The notes under the pieces were generated by a model. It worked only from the letters and a program-made list of their open reading frames with translations. It searched no databases and was not told the origin of the DNA. Positions 13,701 to 36,169 of a DNA stretch of 36,239 nt are shown here, in pieces (within the stretch, counting starts at the first letter, position 1; every line of letters starts with the position of its first letter). Made by a program: the position numbers and the translations under genes. Source of the DNA: a virus; IMG/VR virus record IMGVR_UViG_3300025300_000039, positions 1-36,239 of that record. The stretch is one strand, 5' to 3'.

Positions 13701-16700
13701 ATCAACACTGGCATCAATAAATATTCAAGGTGAACCCGTAAGTGTATACCGTAGATTTATGAATATAATAGCGAACTTTGGGCGTAAGTTAGTAGGAGCG
13801 CCTACAGTATCACTAACTTACATACCTAACATAAATGACTCTCTTAAAGGTTTAGATGTGTTTTCTGCAATAGATACGTTAGTACAAGGTGATAACTTGT
13901 TTGACGCTCTTATAGCTCCTGCACCTGAGTATAGAAACGCAGACATGTTACTACTAAACGCAACTGCGGGCGGTGTAAACGAGATGGCAAAAGCGTTTGG
14001 TACTATACAGAAAAAAATTAACAGCTACGACGGTGTAAAGAGTTTTGGGAATAGTATGTTTGACATTCTAAAAAACTTAAGAAAAAGTCCTAGAGTAGGT
14101 ATTTTAAAGATATTAGGTACACAAGCTTTGGCAGACGTAGCAGAAAAAGCTGGGTTTGGTAAACTAGCTGAAAATCTACACATAGCAATAGAAGAACAAC
14201 GTGGAGCTATGATGGAGTCCGATGCGGCACTAGATGTAGTGATGCGCGATCTCGCTAACTTTAGGAAAGATAACCCTAAACTTAAAGTGGTTATGGATAA
14301 ACTTATTTATGATGCAGATTATGGTAGTACCATAAATCAAGTAGACCCACTTCTTTCACAGGCTGATGCTGAAGCACAATATCTTAGGTATAAATTTGAA
14401 TATTTAAACGACAAGGGAGACTTAAAAACTAAGTCATTTAAAACTAAAAAAGATAGAGATGCCGAGTATAAAAAATTTACAGACCCTAAGTATGAGGCAG
14501 AAAAACTTAATCCTGAATCTGAAAAGATGGATATATGGAAATTACAACAAAAAGAATTAAATAAACTTAACCCTGCGGATAGAAAAAAACTGTTAGCTCA
14601 GTACACCGCATTACGTAATACGTATAGAAACATGTACGAGAAGTTAAAAGACGTACTCTTTGGTCGTGTAGACGCCGCGTTAGCAGAAGATCCTGACGCT
14701 GCTAAAAAGTTAAAAAGTAGTGTGTTTAAAAAAATATTTAGAGCAAACACTTTAGCTGTGTATTTTCCGCTTACGCGTGAAGGTAACTTTAAACTAACCT
14801 ATGCATACAAAAGCGTAGATGAAGCGCCAGAGTCTGAAGCTAACCCGTCTTACGTAGTACGCATGTTTAAGAGCGAAACAGAAAGAGATAGAGCGGCGGC
14901 AGAAATAAGAAAAGATAATAAGTTTGAAAGAGTTGAAACTAGCGACGGTGATTTTAAAGAAGCGCATTTTGAGAACGCTCCCTCATTCTCATTCGTAGGT
15001 AAAACATTAGACGCGTTAAAAAAAGGAGATGTTAAGGAAGATGTAAGAACAGAAATTGTTCAGTTGTTTATTGATACTTTACCTGAAACTTCTTTTGCTA
15101 AATCATTTAAAAAACGTGAAAATATTGAAGGGTTTATAGAAGATTCTTTAGATGCTTTCCGTATAAAAGCTTATGACTTAGGGCGTCAAACTGAACGTCT
15201 AGTTCATGGTAAACGTATTAAAGATATAGAACAACAAATAAGCGGTTTAAAAGTACCTGATCCTGCAGCGATGAAAGCCGAGAGCATTGTAGGTAGAGGC
15301 ACTGAGGCCATCACCGCATCATTTGCCGACCTAAAAAAGGAGTTGCTGCAGAGAGGGGGTTTTGCACGTAACCCTCCTAGCGAACCTCTTATGAAAAAAG
15401 CTAATCAGTTTGCGTTTATATACACCATTGGGTTTAACGTATCCTCTGCCATAGTTAACACATCTCAAGTACCGTTGTTTGTGCTCCCATATCTCGGCGC
15501 TAAGTACGGATACCAACAGAGCGCATCTGACCTTACAAATGCAGGTAGGCTTGTTGGAGGAGCAAAAAATAATATACTAGCGATGTACGATAGAAATGAA
15601 CAAGGTGATTACGTAGTAAAAAGTGATATACCTAAAAACCTTAAAGCAGAATACGAGCTTATGAAACCCGCCGTGCAGATGGCAGCGAAGCGTGGTCTAC
15701 TAACAACATCATTCTTAAAGGATGCTTTAGGTCTTGATGAGTCAGGCAGGAAACGTACCATTGGAGATAGTATTTCTTCCATGTCGGCTTTTTTCTTTAA
15801 CCACGCAGAACGTTTTAACCGCCAAACTACAATACTTGGGGGGTATAATTTAGAGCTTGAGAAGTTGATGGGTAAATATAAACCCAACGATAAACAAAGT
15901 AGAACTGAGTATCTTCTAGGCGCTACAACAGAACAGAAAACAGCCGCCGCTAAAGAGGCAATACGCCAAGCACAAGAAACCAACGGTGGAGCAGTGTTAG
16001 AAACAGCCCCCGCCCTTACACAAAAAGGTATTGGTAGAGTTGCGTTTATGTATAAGAGCTACGGACTTCAGATGTATTACACTATGTTGAAGTCTGCAAA
16101 AACTATGATGGACTCTGACATGAACGCTGAACAGCGTAAGATCGCGGCTAAACAATTAGCAGGTGTTCATGGCACAGCGTTATTCTTTGCAGGTGTTCAT
16201 GGTGTACCGCTCTACGGTGCGTTTAGTGTACTTTACAATTTACTTATCGCAGGTGAAGACGATGATGATTTTGATACTGTTGTACGCAAAACAATAGGAG
16301 AGGGTTGGTATAAAGGTGTACCTGCTATGTCAGGCATTGACCCATCTAACCGTATAAGATTAACAGGTCTATTATTACAAGAAAACAAGTTTGACAGAAA
16401 CGCTGACTTAGAAGGTTTAATAGGGTTTCATCTTGGTGGCCCATTCTTAAGCAGTGCGAAGAGGATACAACGGGGTGCAAAAGATTTATATAACGGGGAA
16501 TTAATGCGTGGTACAGAAAGTCTTCTACCTGCAGGTGTGGCAAATATGATGAAAGCGTTTCCATTTATAGGCCGCATAGATGCAGAAGGTGGTTACAAAA
16601 CCAGACGTGGCGATATTATCTACGATGATGTAAACGTGCTCGAACGTGCAGGACAGTTCCTTGGTTTTGCTCCTACGGGGTATATGTTAGAGCAAGAGCG

Positions 16701-26340: not shown

Positions 26341-26780
26341 TCTTCCTCCACTTCACACTCATAAGCAATACCAACGTAGGCCATGATGTCTACGTAGTGG
26401 TCTCTCTTGAGTGGACTTGTTCTCCTACGTGCTAACTTTGTAGCAATATGGAACATAGGCACTTCTGATGGTTTTATCTTGTGCCCTGTCATAGCATTAA
26501 ATATATTTGCTATGTGGGTCATATTCTCCACAGGGTCACCGTAATCTTTGTTACGTTCACCAGACGTAAGGCTCGATGCTTCGGCAAGTAAAACACTGCG
26601 GTTAGCGTCTTTCTTGAACTGTTCTTTCACGAAAACTTCTTTTGGTGTACCTACGCGAGCTAGTGTTTCTTTTGCGTAGCTATATGAACAACCAACCGCC
26701 TTGGTAATCTCATCTGCCGTAGCCAGTGGGTTATCTAACAAGTACTCAAATACTTTTTCTTCTACTTTCCGTTTCTTCAT
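26337..26780 (-). CDS. Winged-helix plus DUF6378 protein
   Basis: A 147-residue protein with a GGAGAG site. Residues 1-45 look like a winged helix-turn-helix (DEITKAVGCSYSYAKETLAR). The remainder matches my memory of DUF6378: GERNKDYGDP at 74-83, NMTHIANIFNAMTG, KLARRR at 115-120 and DHYVDIMAYVGIAYE at 127-141. The pattern of His/Asp and Lys/Arg residues on helices is reminiscent of all-alpha nucleotide-processing folds of the MazG type, but no reaction is established. The fused DNA-binding domain hints at regulation. It is followed by a zinc ribbon and the polymerase with 4-base overlaps, suggesting a role in nucleotide supply or replication. Confidence 0.75.
   Translation of the reverse strand: MKKRKVEEKVFEYLLDNPLATADEITKAVGCSYSYAKETLARVGTPKEVFVKEQFKKDANRSVLLAEASSLTSGERNKDYGDPVENMTHIANIFNAMTGHKIKPSEVPMFHIATKLARRRTSPLKRDHYVDIMAYVGIAYECEVEEE
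26567..26588 (-). repeat. 22-bp repeat shared by two unrelated genes, copy in DUF6378 gene
   Basis: Identical to 22972-22993 and likewise encodes LAEASSL. The two host genes have no other obvious similarity, and the identity covers synonymous positions, so it is a DNA- or RNA-level repeat. Confidence 0.85.
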
Positions 26781-27704: not shown

Positions 27705-27717
27705 TAGCCATTGGCTA
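27705..27717. repeat. 13-bp palindrome copy 1 (VRR-NUC leader)
   Basis: TAGCCATTGGCTA, extended to CTAG at both ends. It lies just after the stop of the leftward 90-aa gene (27723), within the leader of the VRR-NUC gene. Confidence 0.9.
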
Positions 27718-27722
27718 GCATG

Positions 27723-27995
27723 TTAATCTAAATAAAAGGTGTCAGCACCTACAAAGTTAGTCTTTCGCATACCAACACCTTTAATTTTCCTCCCACGCTC
27801 TACCATCATTAACACAGACACGCGGCCTTTGATAAACTCAGGTAGTGCATCCCAATGGTCATAGCTATCTTCTAATGCATTGTCAACACAATTCATACCA
27901 ATACATCGTACTCTGATATTATTTGTATCAGGATCTGCCCACACTTGGTATAACGTGTCAGAGGGAATATCAGATTGAGACATAGTACATACCAT
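27723..27995 (-). CDS. Hypothetical protein, 90 aa
   Basis: Starts at an ATG five bases after GGAG; a second ATG four codons in is possible. It overlaps the 287-aa gene by up to 26 bases. The sequence (LYQVWADPDTNNIRVRCIGM, HWDALPEFIKGRVSVLMMVE) alternates strand and helix, suggesting a small compact alpha/beta domain. Two cysteines (Cys36 and Cys3) are not arranged as a metal site. No family is recognised. It closes the group of uncharacterised genes downstream of the MoxR/VWA module. Confidence 0.6.
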   Translation of the reverse strand: MVCTMSQSDIPSDTLYQVWADPDTNNIRVRCIGMNCVDNALEDSYDHWDALPEFIKGRVSVLMMVERGRKIKGVGMRKTNFVGADTFYLD

Positions 27996-28833
27996 CTCCC
28001 AACGCGTAGCCTACATCCTCAACATACTGATCTTGTGATAAGATGTTTACAACAGATAGCTTACCTGCCAGCTCCTGGGGAATCGTATCGTCGGTGTAGG
28101 TCTTTAAGCCCTCTGCGTTGAACATCGACCTGTCTCGTAAATAATGTTTGTTAGCGTTATCTATCGGCAATACATCAAAGTGTTGCGTACCGAACTTCTC
28201 ATAAACCTTGACAAGACACAGATTTAACATCTTGGCTTCGGATATTTTATGCTCCTGTTGAGACGTTATGAAGTCTTTGACTTGTTGCCCAAACGCGGGG
28301 TCTATGAACACATGCCCAGAGTTGGATAGGTGTTCCATCTCACGATACATAGCTTCGCTTGTAAACAATTTATCTTTAATATCCTTCGCGTTCTTACGTA
28401 CCTTATCACGTGCCGAACCAAATTGTAGCTTCACGTTGTGTACTGTTTCCACCGCTATGTCAATCATATCAAAGTTCTGAAGATACCGCTTCGCATTCTT
28501 CACACCGTCTTTCAAATGTATAGACATTGCCATATGACGTTGGTGACTGTAGGTTGAATACTTCATATTCCGTATCTTATGAGAATACACAACGTAGTTA
28601 CTGTCTCCCTTACCACTTTCGCGGAAGTCACCAAAGGCAATATACCCCATGCAAAAGGGGTGACCTTCCATGTACACATATGCTTGGTACGTATTTTTGT
28701 ATTCAAACTGTAGACCACGCATCTCTTTACTCAGTTGAAATACAAACTCTTGTATCTCAGGCATGATATCAGAGTGTCCTCCTCTATATCCTTTACCTTT
28801 AATATCGCTCACGCGTTTTGCTTCATAGTTCAT
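27970..28833 (-). CDS. Hypothetical protein, 287 aa
   Basis: Starts at an ATG within the shared GAGGAGAAAACAAAATG leader, overlapping the preceding gene by four bases. The first third is mixed alpha/beta with many Tyr/Phe/His (QAYVYMEGHPFCMGYIAFGD); the middle is helical and Lys-rich (GSARDKVRKNAKDIKDKLFT), and the C-terminus is strand-like (DVGYALGDGMYYVSI). No catalytic motif, cysteine cluster or membrane segment is recognisable. It is one of two large unknown proteins (with the 336-aa gene) in the same transcription unit as the AAA+/VWA genes. Confidence 0.65.
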   Translation of the reverse strand: MNYEAKRVSDIKGKGYRGGHSDIMPEIQEFVFQLSKEMRGLQFEYKNTYQAYVYMEGHPFCMGYIAFGDFRESGKGDSNYVVYSHKIRNMKYSTYSHQRHMAMSIHLKDGVKNAKRYLQNFDMIDIAVETVHNVKLQFGSARDKVRKNAKDIKDKLFTSEAMYREMEHLSNSGHVFIDPAFGQQVKDFITSQQEHKISEAKMLNLCLVKVYEKFGTQHFDVLPIDNANKHYLRDRSMFNAEGLKTYTDDTIPQELAGKLSVVNILSQDQYVEDVGYALGDGMYYVSI

Positions 28834-29108
28834 TTTGTTTTCTCCTCTTCTCTATCTTGGTTAAAACATTTTTTACACAACAATCCTTCTTCGTGGGATT
28901 TTAAGTCTTCAGGATAATCCCAACCACACCAAGAACATTCTTTATGCTCATCATAATAAAAGATTATGCTAGGCATTTTATCTCCTAGTTTTTTGTCCTT
29001 GATCTCAAGTAACTCATCGGCAGAGAGGGTGTCAGCAAATGCCCAATTAGTATGCCCATATTCGCTATTGCAAATATCATCTATTTGCTCTGTTATATCT
29101 CTACTCAT
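28830..29108 (-). CDS. Zinc-binding small acidic protein
   Basis: A 92-residue protein preceded by AAGGAGGAAACAAAATG. Cys58/Cys61 (ECSWCGWDYP) and Cys78/Cys81 (LLCKKCFNQD) form a zinc site in the C-terminal half; the N-terminal half is acidic helix (TLSADELLEIKDKKLGDKM). The C-terminus EEEKTK is encoded by the leader of the next gene. Unknown function. Confidence 0.7.
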   Translation of the reverse strand: MSRDITEQIDDICNSEYGHTNWAFADTLSADELLEIKDKKLGDKMPSIIFYYDEHKECSWCGWDYPEDLKSHEEGLLCKKCFNQDREEEKTK

Positions 29109-29404
29109 TTTGTTTCCTCCTTGTTATAAAATTCATCATAGGCTTCATAGAAATCAGATTTATACCAACTCCAATCGTCGTAAAAATAGCGTACTTCGCC
29201 TTGTCTCCAAACTCCCCATTTGCCTATAAAAGAAAGCCAATTATTTTCAAAATCATCTGGGTCATTTCCAAAATCATCATCACCAATTTCGATTGACCCG
29301 ATACCTTCTTTATAAAAATCCTGATAAGCAAGTGTATCCACTATCTTGTTTGCAAGTTTTATTGCGTTAACTCGATCAAACACTCTTTTTATATCTTCAC
29401 TCAT
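29105..29404 (-). CDS. Hypothetical acidic, aromatic-rich protein
   Basis: A 99-residue protein starting after GGAGAAACAAAATG and overlapping the preceding gene by eight bases. It is strongly acidic and rich in Trp, Tyr and Phe, for example GSIEIGDDDFGNDPDDFENN and RYFYDDWSWYKSDFYEAYDE. Such strongly acidic small phage proteins sometimes mimic DNA or bind host proteins, but there is no evidence for that here beyond composition. Unknown family. Confidence 0.6.
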   Translation of the reverse strand: MSEDIKRVFDRVNAIKLANKIVDTLAYQDFYKEGIGSIEIGDDDFGNDPDDFENNWLSFIGKWGVWRQGEVRYFYDDWSWYKSDFYEAYDEFYNKEETK

Positions 29405-30407
29405 TTTGTTTCTCCTTGATTATAATTTCAGCCGACCCTTCTATTGTAGATACGAGTTGACAGTATTTATTGATGAAGTCGTTGTACCTCGCCCGTAGCG
29501 TCGGCAAGTCCACATCACCTCCTAACTTGTTTTCTATATTATCACGTTCACTCCACAGTTGACGGTCACGTAAGTACTGCCACACCTCATATTGAAACAG
29601 ACTTGTTACATGCCTGTGCCACTCTGGATCACATATAACATCAGAAAGATTTTGGTTATGAAGGGTGTACCAATTTGAATGGCCGCAATGTACCTTAATT
29701 TCTTCTTGCATCTTATTGAAGTAATCAAAGTCAGTGCTTGGCAAGATATTGTACATACTCACTACATACTCTAGTAGCTTATCACTGTATGGTTTGATCT
29801 CTGCTTTACGCTTCTTGTCCACACGCTTCTTGGGGTGCACATACTTATACGTGTCACCACGTACACGCCATAGATGCGTGTTCACCTCTCGCTCGAACTC
29901 AAGTGGATAGTCACCCTTGGGTAGAAAGTAATCGCGGTCTTTCTGATATTTCTTCCCATCGCCATGCTCTATACCAACGTACTGTTTGCCGTTGTCACTG
30001 TAGAACACCATGTTACTCGGCAACGCGTTCTCTAGCATAGTGTAGCGTATTGTATGTGCACTGTTATCTAGTCCGTTGCGTATGCGTATCCGCTCCCTCG
30101 TTCCATCGTATGTCCAAAGTATCGGCGCGAACTCCTGTTCTTGTTTGATGTCCGAAGGTTTTAAGGTGCGCCTGTCATACCACTGTCGTGTATGCTCACC
30201 CAGACCATCGTAGTCACCGCCGTCCATCAGACCGTAGCAATTATATGAGAACTTCTTTATACGTTCCCACTTACGGTTGCGCGGGCCGAGTGGCCTTATG
30301 TCATCTGATAGCGAGTGCTTCTTACTCACCATCGGCTTGGTTGTGTTGTACATTTCCTCCACTCTGTGAAACGTATCCAGATTTGTTTTGTAGTGTCTAT
30401 ATGACAT
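29397..30407 (-). CDS. Hypothetical protein, 336 aa
   Basis: Starts at an ATG after the conserved GAGGAAAAACAAAATG leader, itself directly preceded by a 13-bp palindrome. The protein is basic and aromatic-rich in the first two thirds (NRKWERIKKFSYNCYGLMDG, PKKRVDKKRKAEIKPYSDKL), with scattered beta elements (ENALPSNMVFYSDNGKQYVG), and helical near the C-terminus (YEVWQYLRDRQLWSERDNIE). No catalytic motif is recognised. It follows the VWA gene and a 98-aa gene in the same operon, which makes it a candidate accessory or substrate of the AAA+/VWA system. That link is context only. Confidence 0.65.
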   Translation of the reverse strand: MSYRHYKTNLDTFHRVEEMYNTTKPMVSKKHSLSDDIRPLGPRNRKWERIKKFSYNCYGLMDGGDYDGLGEHTRQWYDRRTLKPSDIKQEQEFAPILWTYDGTRERIRIRNGLDNSAHTIRYTMLENALPSNMVFYSDNGKQYVGIEHGDGKKYQKDRDYFLPKGDYPLEFEREVNTHLWRVRGDTYKYVHPKKRVDKKRKAEIKPYSDKLLEYVVSMYNILPSTDFDYFNKMQEEIKVHCGHSNWYTLHNQNLSDVICDPEWHRHVTSLFQYEVWQYLRDRQLWSERDNIENKLGGDVDLPTLRARYNDFINKYCQLVSTIEGSAEIIIKEKQNE

Positions 30408-30422
30408 TTTGTTTTTCCTCTC

Positions 30423-30435
30423 TAGCCAGTGGCTA
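30423..30435. repeat. 13-bp palindrome copy 2 (leader of 336-aa gene)
   Basis: TAGCCAGTGGCTA on the plus strand. It sits between the stop of the 98-aa gene and the GAGG ribosome-binding site of the 336-aa gene. Confidence 0.9.
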
Positions 30436-30440
30436 CTTGT

Positions 30441-30737
30441 TTATAATATGTTAAATTTGCTTTCGTTAGTTATATGGCCTTTAATGAGTTCATATGTATG
30501 CTTGTCGATCTCGGTTCGTAGTCCTAGATAGTAACGATCACCCGAAGCATTGGTGTAACACTGTTCTTCGTCACTCCATTTTGCAGTGCTATTATCAACA
30601 GGATCACACCTATCACGCACAATTTCATGGTGTGCATCAAGATCATCTCTTTCGGTTATAAACGTAACGGTGTTTACACTGTACATATTACCTGTATCAT
30701 CAGAGTAATAGCCGATATCTGCTAAGTAATATCTCAT
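30441..30737 (-). CDS. Hypothetical protein, 98 aa
   Basis: Starts after GGAGGAGAAG. Residues 1-35 look like beta-strands rich in Tyr (MRYYLADIGYYSDDTGNMYS, VNTVTFITERDD); the second half has acidic and aromatic helices (YLGLRTEIDKHTYELIKGHI). Cys45 and Cys60 are isolated. No family is recognised. It lies 10 bases after the VWA gene and before the 336-aa gene, so it belongs to the AAA+/VWA neighbourhood. Confidence 0.6.
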   Translation of the reverse strand: MRYYLADIGYYSDDTGNMYSVNTVTFITERDDLDAHHEIVRDRCDPVDNSTAKWSDEEQCYTNASGDRYYLGLRTEIDKHTYELIKGHITNESKFNIL

Positions 30738-30747
30738 CTTCTCCTCC

Positions 30748-31983
30748 TTACATATTGTTTGATTTGACGTGGACTACTTTACCCACGCTTGGTTTCGCGG
30801 TCTTATTATCTAAGACTGTCCACAGTACAGGGCATGTCCACTGACCCCAACCACCGTACAGGTAACCATCTGTTAACACGATAACGGCTTGTGGTTTAAT
30901 GCCATGCTCGGCCATATACTCTGGCACACACTCTACATTCGTACCACCGCCACCTCTCGGCTTGGTTGACTTGACCAACGTATCCAGTTCATGTGTCTCG
31001 TACTTCTCATCACGACACACCTCGGTATCCCAATACAACACGCGTACACATGACGGCTTGACCGTATCACAGATAGACTTGATCTCAGACAAGAACACCG
31101 ACAATTCATTCCTGCCAATCGAGCCTGATGTATCAATAGCTAATACCAGTTCCTCGACCTTCTCAGAGATACCGCTTGGCATATAGATATCCATACCAAT
31201 GTATCTGCGGTTGGGCTTGTTCCACGTAGAGTAGTCACTCCCTGCACATGTAGACGAGATGAACTCACGCAACACCTCACGCCAGTTGACTTGGGGTTCA
31301 AGTAGCTCACCCAGATCACGCGCACCCTTGTTGCCTAGCTTCCCTGCAACCATGTCACCTTGGCGTATCGCTTCGTCGATCTCACGTTCGAGTTCTTGCT
31401 TCTCGCCCTCGGTCATCTCCTTCGCACCATCGAAGTCATGGTCATCGAACGGCTCACCGATAGCGGTGTTTTGTTCACCTGTGGTACTTGAATCACCTCC
31501 GCCATTAACGTCGCCATCACCTGATGACGTGTTACCTTGTTTCTTCTCATACAGTAGCTTGAACACTTCCTCGGTATTCATACCCCGATACTTCTCATCG
31601 AGACACCCACCATCGATCCACTCCACGAACCCATTCTTGTTCTCGTCCATGATCTGTATGTTGATAACATAGTCCATTGCCATGTTTGTCAGTTCAGGAT
31701 CTAGCTTGGCCAGATGTTGGTAGTTGTGAATGTGTCTGTACATCTTGTGTCCTACTTCGTGCAGTACAAGAAAGCGCAGTTGCGGATCGGTCAACCCTGC
31801 AACAAACTCACGACCATAGTACTCATCTCTACCGTTGGTGTAGGCAGTTGGTACATCATCTTTGATGCCCCTCTCACCCACCATCAACACACCAGACAAC
31901 GCGGCGTAGTCATCGTTGCCCATGATAGAGACAACGGCCTTGGATAGGCGTTGCTCCTCAGTTAGATTATTTAACATTAACAT
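30748..31983 (-). CDS. Metallopeptidase-like plus VWA-domain protein (DUF2201/CobT-like)
   Basis: A 411-residue protein with GAGAGGAAAACAAAATG leader. Residues 60-110 carry HEVGH (75-79) and a downstream MAMDYVIN (Asp104 region), as in the DUF2201 N-terminal putative metallopeptidase. After an acidic, low-complexity linker (residues about 130-215) comes a VWA-like domain with a MIDAS signature DTSGS at 284-288, a Gly-rich strand (KPRGGGGTNVE) and Asp372 in VLTDGY. VWA proteins of this type pair with MoxR AAA+ ATPases, such as the one at 32112, as client-binding or metal-handling partners. The protein could be called CobT-like, but a cobalt chelatase function is not implied. Confidence 0.85.
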   Translation of the reverse strand: MLMLNNLTEEQRLSKAVVSIMGNDDYAALSGVLMVGERGIKDDVPTAYTNGRDEYYGREFVAGLTDPQLRFLVLHEVGHKMYRHIHNYQHLAKLDPELTNMAMDYVINIQIMDENKNGFVEWIDGGCLDEKYRGMNTEEVFKLLYEKKQGNTSSGDGDVNGGGDSSTTGEQNTAIGEPFDDHDFDGAKEMTEGEKQELEREIDEAIRQGDMVAGKLGNKGARDLGELLEPQVNWREVLREFISSTCAGSDYSTWNKPNRRYIGMDIYMPSGISEKVEELVLAIDTSGSIGRNELSVFLSEIKSICDTVKPSCVRVLYWDTEVCRDEKYETHELDTLVKSTKPRGGGGTNVECVPEYMAEHGIKPQAVIVLTDGYLYGGWGQWTCPVLWTVLDNKTAKPSVGKVVHVKSNNM

Positions 31984-31997
31984 TTTGTTTTCCTCTC

Positions 31998-32010
31998 TAG
32001 CCAGTGGCTA
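31998..32010. repeat. 13-bp palindrome copy 3 (VWA gene leader)
   Basis: TAGCCAGTGGCTA. It lies between a short ORF's stop (32012) and the GAGAGG site of the VWA gene. Confidence 0.9.
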
Positions 32011-32011
32011 A

Positions 32012-32110
32012 TTAAAATGGTGGTTCATCGTCGGGTTCTTCGGGCAACCATACGATATCGTATTGAAACATCGCCCAAAGAAACTCACGTAGATTTCTAC
32101 CATATAACAC
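32012..32110 (-). CDS. Possible 32-aa protein between MoxR and VWA genes
   Basis: A short frame starting at a GTG one base after the MoxR stop and ending directly before the palindrome in the VWA leader. The product (VLYGRNLREFLWAMFQYDIV then WLPEEPDDEPPF) has an aromatic helix and acidic tail that look protein-like. Start codon and expression are uncertain; an out-of-frame 31-codon ATG ORF overlaps it. Confidence 0.35.
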   Translation of the reverse strand: MLYGRNLREFLWAMFQYDIVWLPEEPDDEPPF

Positions 32111-32111
32111 C

Positions 32112-33206
32112 TTACTTCTTATCAGCAGTGAACATATACGTGTTGTCCTTCGCCCACTCAGTGAACTTGGCGTTAGACATAACCACGTCGATCCTACTGT
32201 ACTTCGGGTTCCTCGCACCATTGACGAACATACCTTGGGCTTCTTTGTTTAGCCTTGGCATGTAGTCCATCCACGCGTTGATCCAGTCTTTCTCCATCGA
32301 TGCCAATGATCTGTACACAACCATACACGTGGCACTCGCACTGTCTGGAACCCTCGCGTTCTTGGGATCATTCTTGATACTGTCGAGTGACGGTAATTGA
32401 TCCGCTAGTTTGACAAAGGCCATCATGTCCATCGCACCTTGCTCACCGATAGTACCCATGAGTAAACTTGTTAGGGTGTGATCATCTATCGACCCTCGTG
32501 CGTGCAGTAAGTCGGACGCCATATGTAGGGAACGTGGTGTCGTAAAGGCCGTGCGTTGTAGTTGTGGGTGATAGATGTATGGGTTCTCAGTTGGGTCTTT
32601 GACATCTTCGAATGTCTGCAATACCGCAGGGAAGTCTTTGACAAACCCCAATACCGATGGGTGTACATCGTTGTTGATACCCCACTCGATCCACTCAAGG
32701 TGGTCAGGTTTACGTATCTTAACAGTTGCTACACGATCACGTTGATGTGGTAACAACATATCACCAACGCCCTCTGCTCCAAGGTTCGTCGTGGCAAACA
32801 CGATGCTTCCCTCTGGTAGTTCATAGCTACCAATCTTGCGCTCTAGTATAATACGCAGTAGTGCGTTCTTCACCGCAGGGTTAGCTTTACCGAACTCGTC
32901 AATCATCAGTATGATAGGTTTGTTCAAGTGTACGCCAAGTTCTTCATTGGTTGCATAGGTCACATAGTTCTGACCATCTAACTGTGCCATCTTCGGTATC
33001 ATAATGTCACCGAGATCCTTGGTGGTACAGTCGAAGTAACAGGGCGTATGGTTTGGTAGTCGCTCTGCTAGTGTCGTAAGCATCGACGATTTACCGATAC
33101 CCATGTGACCTTGAGCAAGTATGGTTCGCTTGTCACCATATGCCACGATTGCATCTACGCATTGGTCAAGTGACACCGCGTACATTTGTGTTGCTGAATT
33201 ATTCAT
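32112..33206 (-). CDS. MoxR-family AAA+ ATPase (CobS-like)
   Basis: A 364-residue protein with GAGGAGGAAAACAAATG leader and a 4-base overlap with the preceding 56-aa gene. Walker A GHMGIGKSS is at 33-41, Walker B LMIDEF at 100-105, sensor 1 FATTN near 137-141, an arginine-finger candidate in HQRDRV at 154-159 and a sensor-2 stretch in TPRSLHMAS. This is the complete MoxR/CobS-like AAA+ core; a further C-terminal helical region (residues 250-364) is present. MoxR ATPases form hexamers that remodel partner proteins through a VWA adaptor, which is encoded next in the operon. In phages the target is unknown to me. It is the largest ATPase near the operon promoter, so it is probably early. Confidence 0.88.
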   Translation of the reverse strand: MNNSATQMYAVSLDQCVDAIVAYGDKRTILAQGHMGIGKSSMLTTLAERLPNHTPCYFDCTTKDLGDIMIPKMAQLDGQNYVTYATNEELGVHLNKPIILMIDEFGKANPAVKNALLRIILERKIGSYELPEGSIVFATTNLGAEGVGDMLLPHQRDRVATVKIRKPDHLEWIEWGINNDVHPSVLGFVKDFPAVLQTFEDVKDPTENPYIYHPQLQRTAFTTPRSLHMASDLLHARGSIDDHTLTSLLMGTIGEQGAMDMMAFVKLADQLPSLDSIKNDPKNARVPDSASATCMVVYRSLASMEKDWINAWMDYMPRLNKEAQGMFVNGARNPKYSRIDVVMSNAKFTEWAKDNTYMFTADKK

Positions 33207-33373
33207 TTGTTTTCCTCCTCATTAATTAAATTCCATAGTTCTTCTGCGAACTCTTTGCGACCTTCAAGTATCCCATCGTCAAAGCTATCCACATCTCCTA
33301 TGTCATTTTCGTATTTGGAATATGCTTGGAGTTCACCTTCTATGGCATTGTTTATTTTCTCTATTAGTTTCAT
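33203..33373 (-). CDS. 56-aa acidic helical protein
   Basis: A short gene between the DUF3150-like and MoxR genes. Its ATG follows the conserved GAGGAAAACAAAATG leader and its stop overlaps the MoxR ATG by four bases. The product (MKLIEKINNAIEGELQAYSK onward, containing EGRKEFAEELWNLINEEENK) is acidic and helical. The last codons double as the MoxR ribosome-binding site. No family recognised. Overlap and leader support expression. Confidence 0.75.
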   Translation of the reverse strand: MKLIEKINNAIEGELQAYSKYENDIGDVDSFDDGILEGRKEFAEELWNLINEEENK

Positions 33374-33393
33374 TTTGTTTTCCTCTTTGTTGT

Positions 33394-33406
33394 TAGCCAG
33401 TGGCTA
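33394..33406. repeat. 13-bp palindrome copy 4 (leader of 56-aa gene)
   Basis: TAGCCAGTGGCTA between the stop of the DUF3150-like gene (33409) and the leader of the 56-aa gene. Confidence 0.9.
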
Positions 33407-33408
33407 GA

Positions 33409-34287
33409 TTAAATACCGATTGTTGGTAATGATTTAAGAATGTCGTCCACGTTCTTCTTGGTTTGAGCGCGGAAGTGTGCGTCTTCACGTAGTGCATCAG
33501 GTGTAACACCTTGGAACACATACTCTAGTTGTTGACGTATCTTCTCCTTCTCAGGATTATTATCGAGATTGAAGTCGGCAAGCATATCAATGAGCATCGT
33601 CGCATTGGATACGAGCGTGTCACGGAATATGTTTTTCTTCTCGCCATCATTGAAGTCGATAGTCCTGGACATCTTTGTGAGTGACTCATGTAAACGTGTC
33701 CACACATCATTCATAGATTTCTGGAACATACCATTGTAGCTTGCTTCGCAGTCTTCTTGAACTTGCTTGAGTGCTTCGGCAGGTAGATCGACACGTATGT
33801 CACCTGCATCTGGACATGGGAACGTGTATATATTCCACGCGAACTTGAGCTTAAGTTCATCTAATGTTGGATAGTCACTCGCATTGAATAGGTCACCGAG
33901 TTTAGCCTTTGCTTGCTCTACTTGGAACTCATACTCCGTAAAGAACTTCTCACACAAACTATCAAACTCATTCTTCATGTCTGACATTGTGTTGGTGTAG
34001 TCGAAGTATCGCTTGGTTGGTATCAGGCGTTGACCACCATCGCTCCAAGGTGTCGTCATACTCACGTGCAAGTTACGTGCATTGCCCACGTGTCTACCAA
34101 TAGCTTGGAAGATATCGCTATCACCAAGAAGAGATTTGTAAACATCTGCAACACCGCTCTTGGCATTGTTTGTGTTAACAACTTCTTGTGAAGCTTTCTT
34201 GTCTTTCTTCCTAAGCGTTGCTTGTGATATGCGTAGGTCAACCAGTAGTGCTGACGACGCAAGGGTTGGGGTTGATATTGTATTCAT
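33409..34287 (-). CDS. DUF3150-like protein
   Basis: A 292-residue, largely helical protein with GGAGA upstream of its ATG. Recognisable stretches are NARNLHVSMTTPWSDGGQRL, LIPTKRYFDYTN and FPCPDAGDIRVDLPAEAL, which fit my memory of DUF3150 proteins that accompany MoxR and VWA genes in phages. No catalytic residues stand out. Its C-terminus (AHFRAQTKKNVDDILKSLPT) is helical. Being upstream of MoxR in the same operon suggests a structural or substrate subunit of the complex. The family name is given at moderate confidence; the genomic association is directly visible. Confidence 0.7.
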   Translation of the reverse strand: MNTISTPTLASSALLVDLRISQATLRKKDKKASQEVVNTNNAKSGVADVYKSLLGDSDIFQAIGRHVGNARNLHVSMTTPWSDGGQRLIPTKRYFDYTNTMSDMKNEFDSLCEKFFTEYEFQVEQAKAKLGDLFNASDYPTLDELKLKFAWNIYTFPCPDAGDIRVDLPAEALKQVQEDCEASYNGMFQKSMNDVWTRLHESLTKMSRTIDFNDGEKKNIFRDTLVSNATMLIDMLADFNLDNNPEKEKIRQQLEYVFQGVTPDALREDAHFRAQTKKNVDDILKSLPTIGI

Positions 34288-34421
34288 TGGTCTTCTCCTA
34301 AATATGATTGCATACTTTTTTCTGGTACGTTTTGAAGCAACTCTTCGATAGCGGTCATGTCACCCATGCCCACATCTTCTTTGATTTGATCTATTACTTG
34401 ATCGATAATTTCTTTACTCAT
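34284..34421 (-). CDS. 45-aa conserved-style phage protein
   Basis: A short gene with GGAGGAG before its ATG, and a stop overlapping the DUF3150-like ATG by four bases (ATGA). The product, MSKEIIDQVIDQIKEDVGMG followed by DMTAIEELLQNVPEKSMQSY, resembles a small helical protein family that I recall from many phages (a two-helix unit ending in a Leu-Pro-Glu motif). Function unknown. The overlap ties its translation to the DUF3150-like protein. Confidence 0.7.
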   Translation of the reverse strand: MSKEIIDQVIDQIKEDVGMGDMTAIEELLQNVPEKSMQSYLGEDQ

Positions 34422-34584
34422 CTTCTCCTCCTCTGTTCCAATACTCATGGTTTGGATGTTGCATTATAAACTCTTTACGTAGGCGGTCATGTTCTCGTCT
34501 GGTTCTGACCACCTTGGTTAACACGTATGGCACGTAAACAAGTAGTGCCCCCACGTACATTGATATTAGTATTTCAAATGTCAT
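34414..34584 (-). CDS. 56-aa membrane protein
   Basis: A short gene with the GAGAGGAGAAACAGAATG leader, overlapping the next start by eight bases. Residues 3-24 (FEILISMYVGALLVYVPYVL) form one transmembrane helix, followed by a basic segment (TKVVRTRREHDRLRK) that should stay in the cytoplasm, so N-out/C-in topology is expected. No signal-peptide cleavage site is visible. It may be a single-pass host-membrane factor; a holin or superinfection role cannot be judged from size alone. Confidence 0.7.
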   Translation of the reverse strand: MTFEILISMYVGALLVYVPYVLTKVVRTRREHDRLRKEFIMQHPNHEYWNRGGEDE

Positions 34585-34598
34585 TCTGTTTCTCCTCT

Positions 34599-34802
34599 CT
34601 AGCCAGTGGCTAATGATTTTTGGTTAAGGTGTTTTAGTTCTTCGACATTGGTGATACGCGTGTAACCTTGTTTAGGTAAGGGTACGACAGTCCAGCCGAG
34701 TCGGACTTGGGTCGCGTCTTGCTCACCACAATCGAGACAGGTCGTATAACCTAACATGGCTCGATCTACTGAGAATTGATTGTCACATTTCTTACATTGC
34801 AT
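34599..34802 (-). CDS. Zinc-ribbon protein, first gene of leftward operon
   Basis: A 67-residue protein with Cys3/Cys6 (MQCKKCDNQF) and Cys22/Cys25 (TTCLDCGEQD), a compact zinc ribbon, then a strand-rich tail (LGWTVVPLPKQGYTR). It starts after an ACGGAGAAACAAATG leader and is the first gene after the consensus promoter at 34902. Its stop codon TAG lies inside palindrome copy 5, and the codons LATG just before it are encoded by the palindrome. Function unknown, perhaps an early DNA- or RNA-binding protein. Confidence 0.75.
   Translation of the reverse strand: MQCKKCDNQFSVDRAMLGYTTCLDCGEQDATQVRLGWTVVPLPKQGYTRITNVEELKHLNQKSLATG
34600..34612. repeat. 13-bp palindrome copy 5 (leader of membrane protein gene)
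   Basis: TAGCCAGTGGCTA. It overlaps the stop codon of the 67-aa zinc-ribbon gene and precedes the GAGAGG site of the 56-aa membrane protein gene. Confidence 0.9.
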
Positions 34803-34821
34803 TTGTTTCTCCGTTTGTTGC

Positions 34822-34834
34822 TAGCCAGTGGCTA
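34822..34834. repeat. 13-bp palindrome copy 6 (5' leader of operon)
   Basis: TAGCCAGTGGCTA flanked by CTAG on both sides. It lies between the operon promoter and the first gene (34802), in the untranslated leader. Confidence 0.9.
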
Positions 34835-34841
34835 GGGGTTG

Positions 34842-34870
34842 TATGACGTGTTACTGTGTGTTGCGTCATA
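34842..34870 (-). promoter_or_regulatory. Inverted repeat in operon leader
   Basis: TATGACG (34842-34848) and CGTCATA (34864-34870) are 7-base inverted arms with 15 bases between. The element is about 25 bases downstream of the predicted transcription start, between promoter and palindrome copy 6. It could be an operator or an RNA hairpin. It contains ACGTGTTA, which also occurs at 35407-35414 and 36130-36137. Confidence 0.5.
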
Positions 34871-34901
34871 GTAAATAATTTTTTTTCTTGAACATACTTG
34901 C

Positions 34902-34930
34902 AGTATAACACAAGTATCGGGAAATGTCAA
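34902..34930 (-). promoter_or_regulatory. Consensus sigma70-type promoter of leftward operon
   Basis: On the minus strand TTGACA (34925-34930) is followed by exactly 17 bases and TATACT (34902-34907). Transcription should begin near 34895 and run leftward through the whole early/replication block. It is the only promoter of this strength that I found by eye in the window. An A/T-rich run follows the -10 element. Confidence 0.85.
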
Positions 34931-34997
34931 ACAATGTGGTTACTTATTGTTTTCACTTATTTGGTGTTAAATGGTGGTGTTTGGTGTAATGTCCTGC

Positions 34998-35360
34998 AAT
35001 GTTCCATAATGTTCCAAAGTGGTGGTCTGGAAGTGCTTGAAAAGATTGGAATGTTCCAAAGTTCCTTTTAGGTCAAAATTGGACGGTCTTGAGATGTGCG
35101 GATTTTAGAATGGAACAAATGGACTCGCGCAAAGGCGGATCTTACAGGCGGATAGTAATTTTTTACTTTTGGAACATTATAAAAATATATATATATATAG
35201 ACCTTTTTACTACTACTACACATTACTGCTAGCCACTGGCTACCACCATTTACCACGAAAACATAATGTACCTTTTTCGTAAATATTTTGGAACATTATG
35301 GAACATTACACCCCTTTTTTGGAACATTGCAATAATATCAATAACTTACGTTGGAACATT
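34998..35360. other. Candidate replication origin with opposed iterons
   Basis: This lies within the 700-base gene-free stretch 34803-35500. AATGTTCCAW occurs at 34998, 35008 and 35051 (minus orientation) and WTGGAACATT at 35169, 35288, 35299, 35319 and 35351 (plus orientation): eight copies, three facing one way and five the other. Between them lies AT-rich DNA, including a run of alternating TA at about 35186-35200. Incomplete copies are at 35059-35066 (AAAGTTCC) and 35111. Opposed iterons and AT-rich unwinding DNA typify phage and plasmid origins. An operator cluster is the main alternative. Confidence 0.6.
35230..35242. repeat. 13-bp palindrome copy 7 (control region)
   Basis: TAGCCACTGGCTA, located next to the AT-rich core of the candidate origin. 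Confidence 0.9.
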
Positions 35361-35375
35361 CGCTCGACGCTCCGC

Positions 35376-35452
35376 AGTCACTGGTATCTTTTCTAGCCAT
35401 TGGCTAACGTGTTATAGTGCGAGGCTCGGTGCGTCTGAGTCACTGGTATCTT
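35376..35452. repeat. 15-bp direct repeat flanking palindrome copy 8
   Basis: AGTCACTGGTATCTT occurs at 35376-35390 and again at 35438-35452, 62 bases apart. Between them are palindrome copy 8 and AACGTGTTA. The arrangement is in the control region between the candidate origin and the 179-aa gene's terminator. It does not look like an attachment site, as no integrase is in the window. Confidence 0.8.
35394..35406. repeat. 13-bp palindrome copy 8 (control region)
   Basis: TAGCCATTGGCTA, between the two copies of AGTCACTGGTATCTT. Confidence 0.9.
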
Positions 35453-35465
35453 AAAAATTTGGCAC

Positions 35466-35493
35466 AAAAAAAAGGGGAGCAATTAAGCTCCCC
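35466..35493 (-). terminator. Rho-independent terminator of the 179-aa gene
   Basis: GGGGAGC (35474-35480), loop AATTAA, GCTCCCC (35487-35493), with plus-strand A-run 35466-35473 giving a U-tract for leftward transcription. It lies 8 bases after the stop codon of the 179-aa gene, so that gene is a separate transcription unit from the operon starting at 34902. Confidence 0.9.
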
Positions 35494-35500
35494 AATAGTT

Positions 35501-36040
35501 TTATTTGATTGCTTTGAGCAATTCCAAAGTATTCTCTAATTGCTCTTGCTTGTCGAAGTCATCGACTTTTTCAATCTCTTTCTTGACTGCCGTCTTAAGC
35601 TTGGCAATCTCATCTTTAACACGTGTAAAGATATCACGAGGCGTATTTGCACCACCAGAGATTTGCTTGACCTTGCGGTTCTCGATGGCTTGTCCTAGCT
35701 TGTTAAGACCAGAGGTAATTTGGCCTTTCCAATGCGCTTGGTTCTTAGGTTTGCCACCTGTAGTAAAGTGACAGCCATTGTGATCTGGCGCCGTGTCATG
35801 GCCTTGTGCGTTCTTATTACTGATAAGCTTGATTGCTTCAGGTGTGAACCTAAGCGCAAATGCATCGCGTAAAGCTTGTCGATCATCACCTTGAAGATCC
35901 TGCTCACGTGTCCAACCAATCTTTATCAATTGGTCAATCAACGTTGACGATCTTTTCTGGCTGGCCTTGTGGCCTTTACTATCTTCCCTCACAAGGTGAA
36001 GTGTTCGGTCGCATAGTACTACGTTTGTATTGTTTGGCAT
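35501..36040 (-). CDS. Hypothetical 179-aa basic protein, monocistronic
   Basis: Starts at an ATG after AGGAGG, with a palindrome directly upstream and its own terminator downstream. Residues 1-60 are mixed and basic (RTLHLVREDSKGHKASQKRS), the middle holds NAQGHDTAPDHNGCHFTTGG with several His and one Cys, possibly a metal site, and the C-terminal 60 residues are a charged coiled-coil-like helix (RVKDEIAKLKTAVKKEIEKV). No family recognised. A separate transcription unit facing the candidate origin and carrying an operator-like inverted repeat upstream suits a regulator or initiator, but this is inference. Confidence 0.6.
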   Translation of the reverse strand: MPNNTNVVLCDRTLHLVREDSKGHKASQKRSSTLIDQLIKIGWTREQDLQGDDRQALRDAFALRFTPEAIKLISNKNAQGHDTAPDHNGCHFTTGGKPKNQAHWKGQITSGLNKLGQAIENRKVKQISGGANTPRDIFTRVKDEIAKLKTAVKKEIEKVDDFDKQEQLENTLELLKAIK

Positions 36041-36061
36041 AACTGCCTCCTATAAATATGC

Positions 36062-36074
36062 TAGCCATTGGCTA
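36062..36074. repeat. 13-bp palindrome copy 9 (leader of 179-aa gene)
   Basis: TAGCCATTGGCTA, flanked by CTAG extensions. It lies about 15 bases upstream of the AGGAGG site of the 179-aa gene. Confidence 0.9.
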
Positions 36075-36113
36075 GCGGTTACATCGTCTCAAGGTTTCCC
36101 TTGCCGATAATTA

Positions 36114-36137
36114 TTTATAACACGTGATAACGTGTTA
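36114..36137 (-). promoter_or_regulatory. Operator-like inverted repeat overlapping a possible promoter
   Basis: TAACACG (36118-36124) and CGTGTTA (36131-36137) are perfect 7-base arms with a 6-base spacer. On the minus strand TG-T-TATAAA (36114-36122) resembles an extended -10 element with no good -35 box, placed to transcribe the 179-aa gene. A protein on the inverted repeat would overlap this element. The half-site ACGTGTTA recurs near the operon promoter and in the control region. Confidence 0.45.
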
Positions 36138-36156
36138 CCCTATGATATAGCGGAGT

Positions 36157-36169
36157 TAGCCATTGGCTA
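36157..36169. repeat. 13-bp palindrome copy 10
   Basis: TAGCCATTGGCTA, upstream of the operator-like repeat. It is followed by C-runs (36177-36193) that are G-runs of 3, 6 and 4 on the minus strand. The remaining 40 bases to the window end hold no gene. Confidence 0.9.

Follow-up and report, generated by a model that had tools for sequence, protein, structure and literature searches.

Dispersed palindromes in the early region of a phage lineage change type together with the early gene C9

The window considered here, that is, the whole stretch of 36,239 nucleotides of the IMG/VR virus contig record IMGVR_UViG_3300025300_000039, contains ten exact copies of the palindrome TAGCCA-N-TGGCTA (searched for as TAGCCANTGGCTA), and none is found in 100 dinucleotide shuffles. 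They all fall within positions 27705 to 36169, the half of the contig with the leftward early genes, where a gene referred to as C9 is also located. A first-pass annotation, made from the letters of the window, had listed ten copies; the pattern search reproduces each of its positions exactly, and its tally of the centre base is also right, being G in five copies, T in four, and C in one when read on the plus strand. A literature search found no description of these palindromic repeats.

C9, of 179 aa, is the first early gene (35501..36040, minus strand). Two palindromes lie upstream of it: copy 1 (36157..36169), whose first half on the minus strand coincides with a weak -35-like hexamer, and copy 2 (36062..36074), a 17-bp perfect GCTAGCCAATGGCTAGC situated 21 bp upstream of the C9 start codon. 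Directly 3' of C9 there is a strong intrinsic terminator on the minus strand (35474..35493; 7-bp stem, T8), and the non-coding stretch from C9 to the main early promoter holds copy 3 (35394..35406), with the type-invariant GATACCAGT element a short distance after, and copy 4 (35230..35242). The promoter (34902..34930, minus strand; TTGACA-17-TATACT with an extended -10, 11 of 12 matches) has an equivalent in most relatives. Copy 5 (34822..34834) is 68 bp downstream of its -10 and before the ribosome-binding site (RBS) of a 67-aa gene, and copy 6 (34600..34612) overlaps the stop codon of this gene and precedes the next RBS. Copy 7 (33394..33406) stands before a 56-aa gene and moxR, the gene of a MoxR-like AAA ATPase (32112..33206, minus strand); copy 8 (31998..32010), before the RBS of a VWA/DUF2201 putative metallopeptidase gene (30748..31983, minus strand); copy 9 (30423..30435), before the RBS of a 336-aa gene; and copy 10 (27705..27717), the last of the set, before a 97-aa VRR-NUC-like gene.

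As had been noted before, six copies (30423, 31998, 33394, 34600, 34822, and 36062) are directly 5' of the Shine-Dalgarno sequence and start codon of a leftward gene. The accompanying claim that no copy lies wholly inside a gene holds if the overlap with a stop codon is excepted, but copy 34600-34612 falls within the 67-aa open reading frame (34599-34802) once its stop is counted, encoding L-A-T-G-stop at the 3' end. Random 13-mers placed in the early region would land in a gene in 85% of cases. A near-miss at 26720, also pointed out in the first-pass annotation, carries 2 mismatches, and because 1.7 matches at that level are expected by chance it is not counted as one.

Relatives were found by scanning IMG/VR with the MoxR-like ATPase, which gave 41 loci; a scan with a MoxR alignment confirmed at least 576 relatives, and the 80 best were retained. 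An unbiased palindrome finder was then run on 113 related IMG/VR loci, and a repeated palindrome was present in all 113, with scores of 19-135 versus 13.8 for the best shuffled control. About 18 palindrome types are distinguished across these loci, mostly of 15-19 bp, each named by the letters of its half-site and a figure for the length of its centre. They include TAGCCA-1, GTTAGTG-3, GTAGTG-3, TTATGC-5, and GCGTGG-7, also GTTAGGGA-1 and -2, TTTAGGGA-2, TTCGGGCA-2, GGTAGTCC-2, and GTTAGTCC-2, and further GTTATACG, GTTATCCA, TCTATACA, TTACGGAA, GATAAGTA, and others. When aligned on their centres, most types keep one half-site register (e.g., TAGCCA / TATCCA / TAGTG / TAGGGA), and in most of them the distance between the half-sites is 10 or 11 bp, roughly one turn of the helix. 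The close group (L005-L013) shares the 13-mer of the window, whereas in more distant relatives it is absent and each carries another palindrome family. Absence of the repeat from orthologous gaps had been regarded in the first-pass annotation as a sign against regulation; distant relatives do lack the TAGCCA sequence, but the same gaps hold another palindrome. Moreover, the types are almost exclusive to their genomes: in 1.4 Mb, 629 exact copies belong to the type of the genome that carries them and 6 to another type. The lineage is apparently uncultured and, with that many relatives of its ATPase in IMG/VR, large.

The placement of the palindromes is also maintained. In seven long contigs (58-63 kb, near whole genomes), exact copies are confined to the early region. 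A copy is found at most 220 bp upstream of C9 in 61 of 67 loci, of moxR in 89 of 108, of the VWA gene in 67 of 110, and of the VRR-NUC gene in 39 of 66; with the same limit, polA is preceded by a palindrome in none of 56 loci. Copies directly before a Shine-Dalgarno sequence and start codon amount to 304 of 572, versus 86 for random places. The earlier description of the repeat as confined to intergenic DNA is true of the window genome but not of the family, given that GTAGTG-type phages have copies inside moxR in 9/9 loci and inside the VWA gene in 10/10. In this case, the moxR site corresponds to codons for residues largely common to other types (GGT AGT ... CTA CAC in the GTAGTG type versus GGT AGC ... 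CTA elsewhere), being partly a synonymous change.

The palindrome type changes together with C9. In pairs of loci whose MoxR proteins are at least 90% identical, the identity of C9 amounts to 52-100% if both loci have the same palindrome type (109 pairs) and to 21-38% if their types differ (26 pairs). Such switches occur within five separate clades, which is a better count than the pairs because these are not independent of each other. For example, the GTAGTCC-type G014 and the GTTAGGGA-type G011 show 95-100% identity in almost every other gene compared, whereas C9 is only 26% identical and every palindrome differs along with it. Also, G009 and G008 show 91-100% identity elsewhere and 29% in C9. 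Conversely, G014 and G009 share one palindrome type and are less alike elsewhere, with C9 56% identical. When the genes were compared pair by pair, no gene other than C9 proved to be replaced in all of the switches. An alignment of the DNA of L033 and L039 shows C9 replaced almost exactly between the gene ends, and in one of the gaps a different palindrome stands between flanks of identical coding DNA. Since the palindrome type changes only together with C9, its product would be the reader of the sites, and we find strong grounds in this co-variation to propose that C9 recognises the palindromes. Of the two candidate binders put forward previously, the 179-aa protein is thus the one whose gene co-switches; no evidence ties the other, an 87-aa helix-turn-helix (HTH) protein, to the sites, and it is not traceable in the switch pairs.

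Two side observations concern these loci. L033 carries at 14622-15380 a 252-aa gene without counterpart in the near-identical L039, a recent insertion in the early region. Three loci have two tandem C9 genes (L139, 5791-7983; L142, 80-2272; L143, 6553-7934), and in L139 the second C9 has its own palindromes, with a centre 1 bp longer. Such tandem loci are possible intermediates of specificity switching.

The C9 proteins are basic (median pI 9.4) and their alignment is of low identity. AlphaFold2 predicts an all-helical structure, with a pLDDT of 85 for the window protein and 91 for that of L096. The type-specific residues cluster at positions 99-114, at the start of a long helix, which makes this segment a candidate recognition helix. 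An HTH PHROG gives weak matches from six C9 members (best E 9e-4).

We consider it likely that the palindromes are two-fold-symmetric DNA sites for C9, which would act as a stoperator-like roadblock and damp early transcription. According to this proposal, C9 would be transcribed first, its transcript being ended by its own terminator, and the protein would bind the palindrome arms about one helical turn apart as two-fold-symmetric DNA, both in its own upstream region and at about eight sites along the early operon, the first of them roughly 40-200 bp past the main promoter. Bound C9 would most likely obstruct RNA polymerase, so that early transcription is damped as C9 accumulates, and a phage of matching type that enters the cell would be silenced just as well. 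By a strict test, C9 is followed by a terminator in 14 of 59 distinct loci, and in most loci a promoter with 10-12 of 12 matches lies some 520-1560 bp after the gene. A palindrome is found 17-194 bp (mostly 38-194) downstream of that promoter in most loci and seldom overlaps it; around palindromes in general, sigma-70-like sites are not enriched at any fixed place. Because the sites mostly lie behind the promoter and not on it, they would suit a roadblock rather than promoter occlusion. On this proposal, C9 would represent a new all-helical DNA-binding family.

Several observations weigh against this proposal. C9 matches no known DNA-binding family or fold: comparisons by family and structure with Pfam, PHROGs, PADLOC, PDB sequences, PDB and BFVD (Foldseek), and VIA-align yield no match above noise. 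No C9 relative is recognised in G007 or G013 (L035/G013), though both have palindromes, and in G007 a 272-aa gene of unrelated sequence (59601-60419) is located where C9 would be expected. Palindrome sets without a recognisable C9 may have a second family of binders. If the second C9 of L143, one of the three loci carrying two, is taken as cognate, three same-type pairs drop to 31% identity. A parsimony count across all loci requires 16 changes of site type when mapped on the C9 tree versus 18 on the MoxR tree, a difference that favours C9 weakly, the strength of the case being in the close relatives. Finally, several types show a skew of the centre base when read on the coding strand (in GTTAGGGA-1, A/C 30 versus T/G 4).

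This last point bears on the alternative that C9 binds the palindromes as RNA hairpins in early-gene leaders, in antitermination, processing, or translational control. A precedent is the lambda N protein, a small basic early-gene protein with phage-specific recognition of a short symmetric element (boxB) downstream of the early promoters. C9 is likewise small, basic, and the product of the first early gene, and the copies are often in transcribed leaders, just before an RBS at the frequency given above, and downstream of the main promoter. Moreover, in five window copies tested the RNA stem folds as predicted, slightly better than shuffles (z -0.7 to -1.9). However, the arm sequence and not only its pairing is fixed within a genome, 531 of the 629 distinct copies being exact, and at unpaired arm positions among the 629 there are 32 G-U versus 27 A-C combinations, which shows no wobble preference. 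Also, boxB is an RNA hairpin present at two places per genome, as against about ten sites here; the two orientations of the centre are about equally frequent in the largest type (776 same versus 757 opposite pairs), L036 has an asymmetric site in both orientations, GTAGTG-type copies lie inside translated genes, and an Rfam search gave no match. The RNA stem-loop offered in the first-pass annotation as a second reading is thus disfavoured; because there is no G-U preference, centres occur in both orientations, and copies lie inside genes in one lineage, DNA is favoured as the target. With the centre skew seen in several types, although many copies are orthologous and not independent, an RNA role keeps a modest chance and is judged unlikely.

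Dispersed palindromes read by one protein also recall the KorB operators (OB) of plasmid RK2 and the ParB/parS systems, in which dispersed 13-bp palindromes with a free centre base serve one global regulator. If C9 nucleated on the sites as KorB/ParB do on OB/parS, it would organise or silence the early region by spreading, and the dispersed near-invariant palindromes with a variable centre, a single protein, and a limited region would agree with it. Nonetheless, C9 lacks a ParB domain (59 members compared with Pfam, no ParB among the 25 families listed), a ParA-type ATPase (PF13614) was not found in 16 relatives, whose records may be incomplete, and the sites occur only within the early operon, where they are associated with the starts of genes and with a promoter. 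This partition-like role is considered improbable.

A role as mobile elements has a still smaller chance. REP sequences change together with their RAYT transposase, and REP/MITE-like repeats spread by a transposase-like C9 would explain the concerted replacement, given that a genome has a single sequence in all its copies and these are exchanged jointly. But the same orthologous gaps are occupied in different types, the copies have only 13-19 bp, and a comparison of C9 with Pfam gives no transposase or nuclease family match. Least probable of all is that C9 reads sites of replication or packaging (iterons, pac-like), for although the stretch from C9 to the promoter is non-coding, rich in further repeats (AATGTTCC, GATACCAGT), and adjoins the terminase genes, most palindromes lie outside it, over about 10 kb at gene starts.

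Other elements of the early region deserve mention. A second repeat of about 30 nt, TGATACCAGTTCCT..G..GCG..GAGC, is present on the minus strand of the window at about 35451 and 35389, and in 73 of 73 loci within 900 bp after C9. It is mostly in the sense orientation (293 versus 63), in many cases keeps a fixed distance of 20-40 nt to the start of a palindrome, and, unlike the palindrome, is constant across palindrome types. Several AATGTTCC iterons occur at 35000-35400 in the non-coding stretch of the window, with similar AATGTTC repeats in relatives, and this stretch is possibly a replication origin. The TTATGC-type palindromes of L027, L029, and L036 share part of their sequence with another inverted repeat, which is GC-rich (GCGGGGC-ATTAT-GCCCCGC), so that two mutually exclusive hairpins could be formed. 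The pair made up of the MoxR ATPase and the DUF2201 VWA/metallopeptidase (30748-33206, minus strand) is conserved across the lineage; the PHROG label of the VWA protein family, 'HNH endonuclease', looks like a misannotation because the Pfam match of this protein says otherwise.

Regarding lifestyle, no tyrosine integrase was found in the records of 17 relatives (about 60 kb, which may be incomplete; other lysogeny modes were not tested), and no resolvase or serine integrase in 16 relatives, with records of similar size that may also be incomplete; HTH_3 appears in relatives only below the cut-off. A scan of 84,980 bacterial and archaeal species genomes gave no relative and no prophage. By terminase, the nearest cultured phages are the Pelagibacter phages HTVC027P/HTVC023P and similar ones, with 42-46% identity. 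The first 50 kb of four such pelagiphage genomes contain no repeated palindrome family comparable to those described here and no C9 detectable by hidden Markov model, and a whole-record search for C9 gives only a marginal match (E 0.004 in HTVC023P).

A more tentative proposal, which we regard as possible but doubtful, is that phages without lysogeny genes carry a self-recognition system, consisting of a hypervariable early protein and some ten matching palindromes dispersed over genomes that are nearly identical otherwise, and that selection makes it switch type wholesale to escape silencing. This silencing would come from a same-type phage already in the cell or from a host or satellite that copied the protein, and each gap would have its site rewritten where it stands, with the flanking coding DNA unchanged. 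From the switching of C9 and its sites it would seem that competition of the immunity type extends beyond temperate phages, and the wholesale exchange of a gene and all its sites between near-identical phages poses the question of how dispersed sites are rewritten together. C9 is unclassified and its record of specificity switching is unusually clean, providing matched regulators and sites for more than a dozen specificities from sequence alone. If C9 binds DNA, it would constitute a new DNA-binding family that has its specificity code built in and could be put to use in the orthogonal control of genes.

Among known systems, the closest counterparts are found in mycobacteriophages of clusters A and K. 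The cluster A mycobacteriophages (L5, Bxb1) have stoperators, many short sites through the lytic genes with a phage-coded binder, where the site changes with the binder (PMC6550527). The palindromes resemble them in being dispersed short sites whose sequence changes with the regulator, here C9 in five clades, and their placement downstream of a promoter would fit a stoperator-like stop of elongation. However, stoperators are 13 bp, asymmetric, and bound by a repressor monomer (PMC4557955), and they have one predominant orientation, with up to about 30 per genome, and a lysogeny repressor (PMC6550527). The sites described here are palindromic in all types, have centres in both orientations in the largest type, number about 7-10, and are limited to the early region of phages in which no lysogeny genes were found. 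Also, their proposed binder could be assigned to no known repressor family, and the switch occurs as well between phages that are 95-100% identical in almost all their other genes. From the stoperator analogy drawn at first, a multi-copy regulatory DNA site with stoperator-like placement and a phage-protein reader is retained, and the lysogenic setting finds no support.

Another comparison is with mycobacteriophage BPs, whose 12-bp palindromic repressor operators have additional copies elsewhere in the genome (PMC4557955). Unlike in the window system, these are few copies with paired half sites in a temperate phage with integration-dependent immunity.

The cluster K mycobacteriophages have start-associated sequences (SAS) and their extended form (ESAS), inverted-repeat sites before the start codons of non-structural genes whose consensus differs by subcluster and which were proposed as sites of DNA-binding proteins with different specificity (PMC3203893). 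The inverted repeats before starts (304 of 572 copies) and the about 18 consensus types found here are similar to this. SAS, however, is asymmetric and includes the RBS, while the arms of ESAS form an imperfect repeat of 17 bp around a variable spacer; the passages on these sequences mention no partner gene (PMC3203893). In contrast, a genome here has one near-invariant palindrome, and a partner gene is identified by co-switching. The asymmetric RBS-containing repeat of cluster K, GGGATAGGAGCCC, is not among the most frequent repeated words of the window. The palindrome system thus works like the stoperators of cluster A and the ESAS of cluster K, and is a member of neither.

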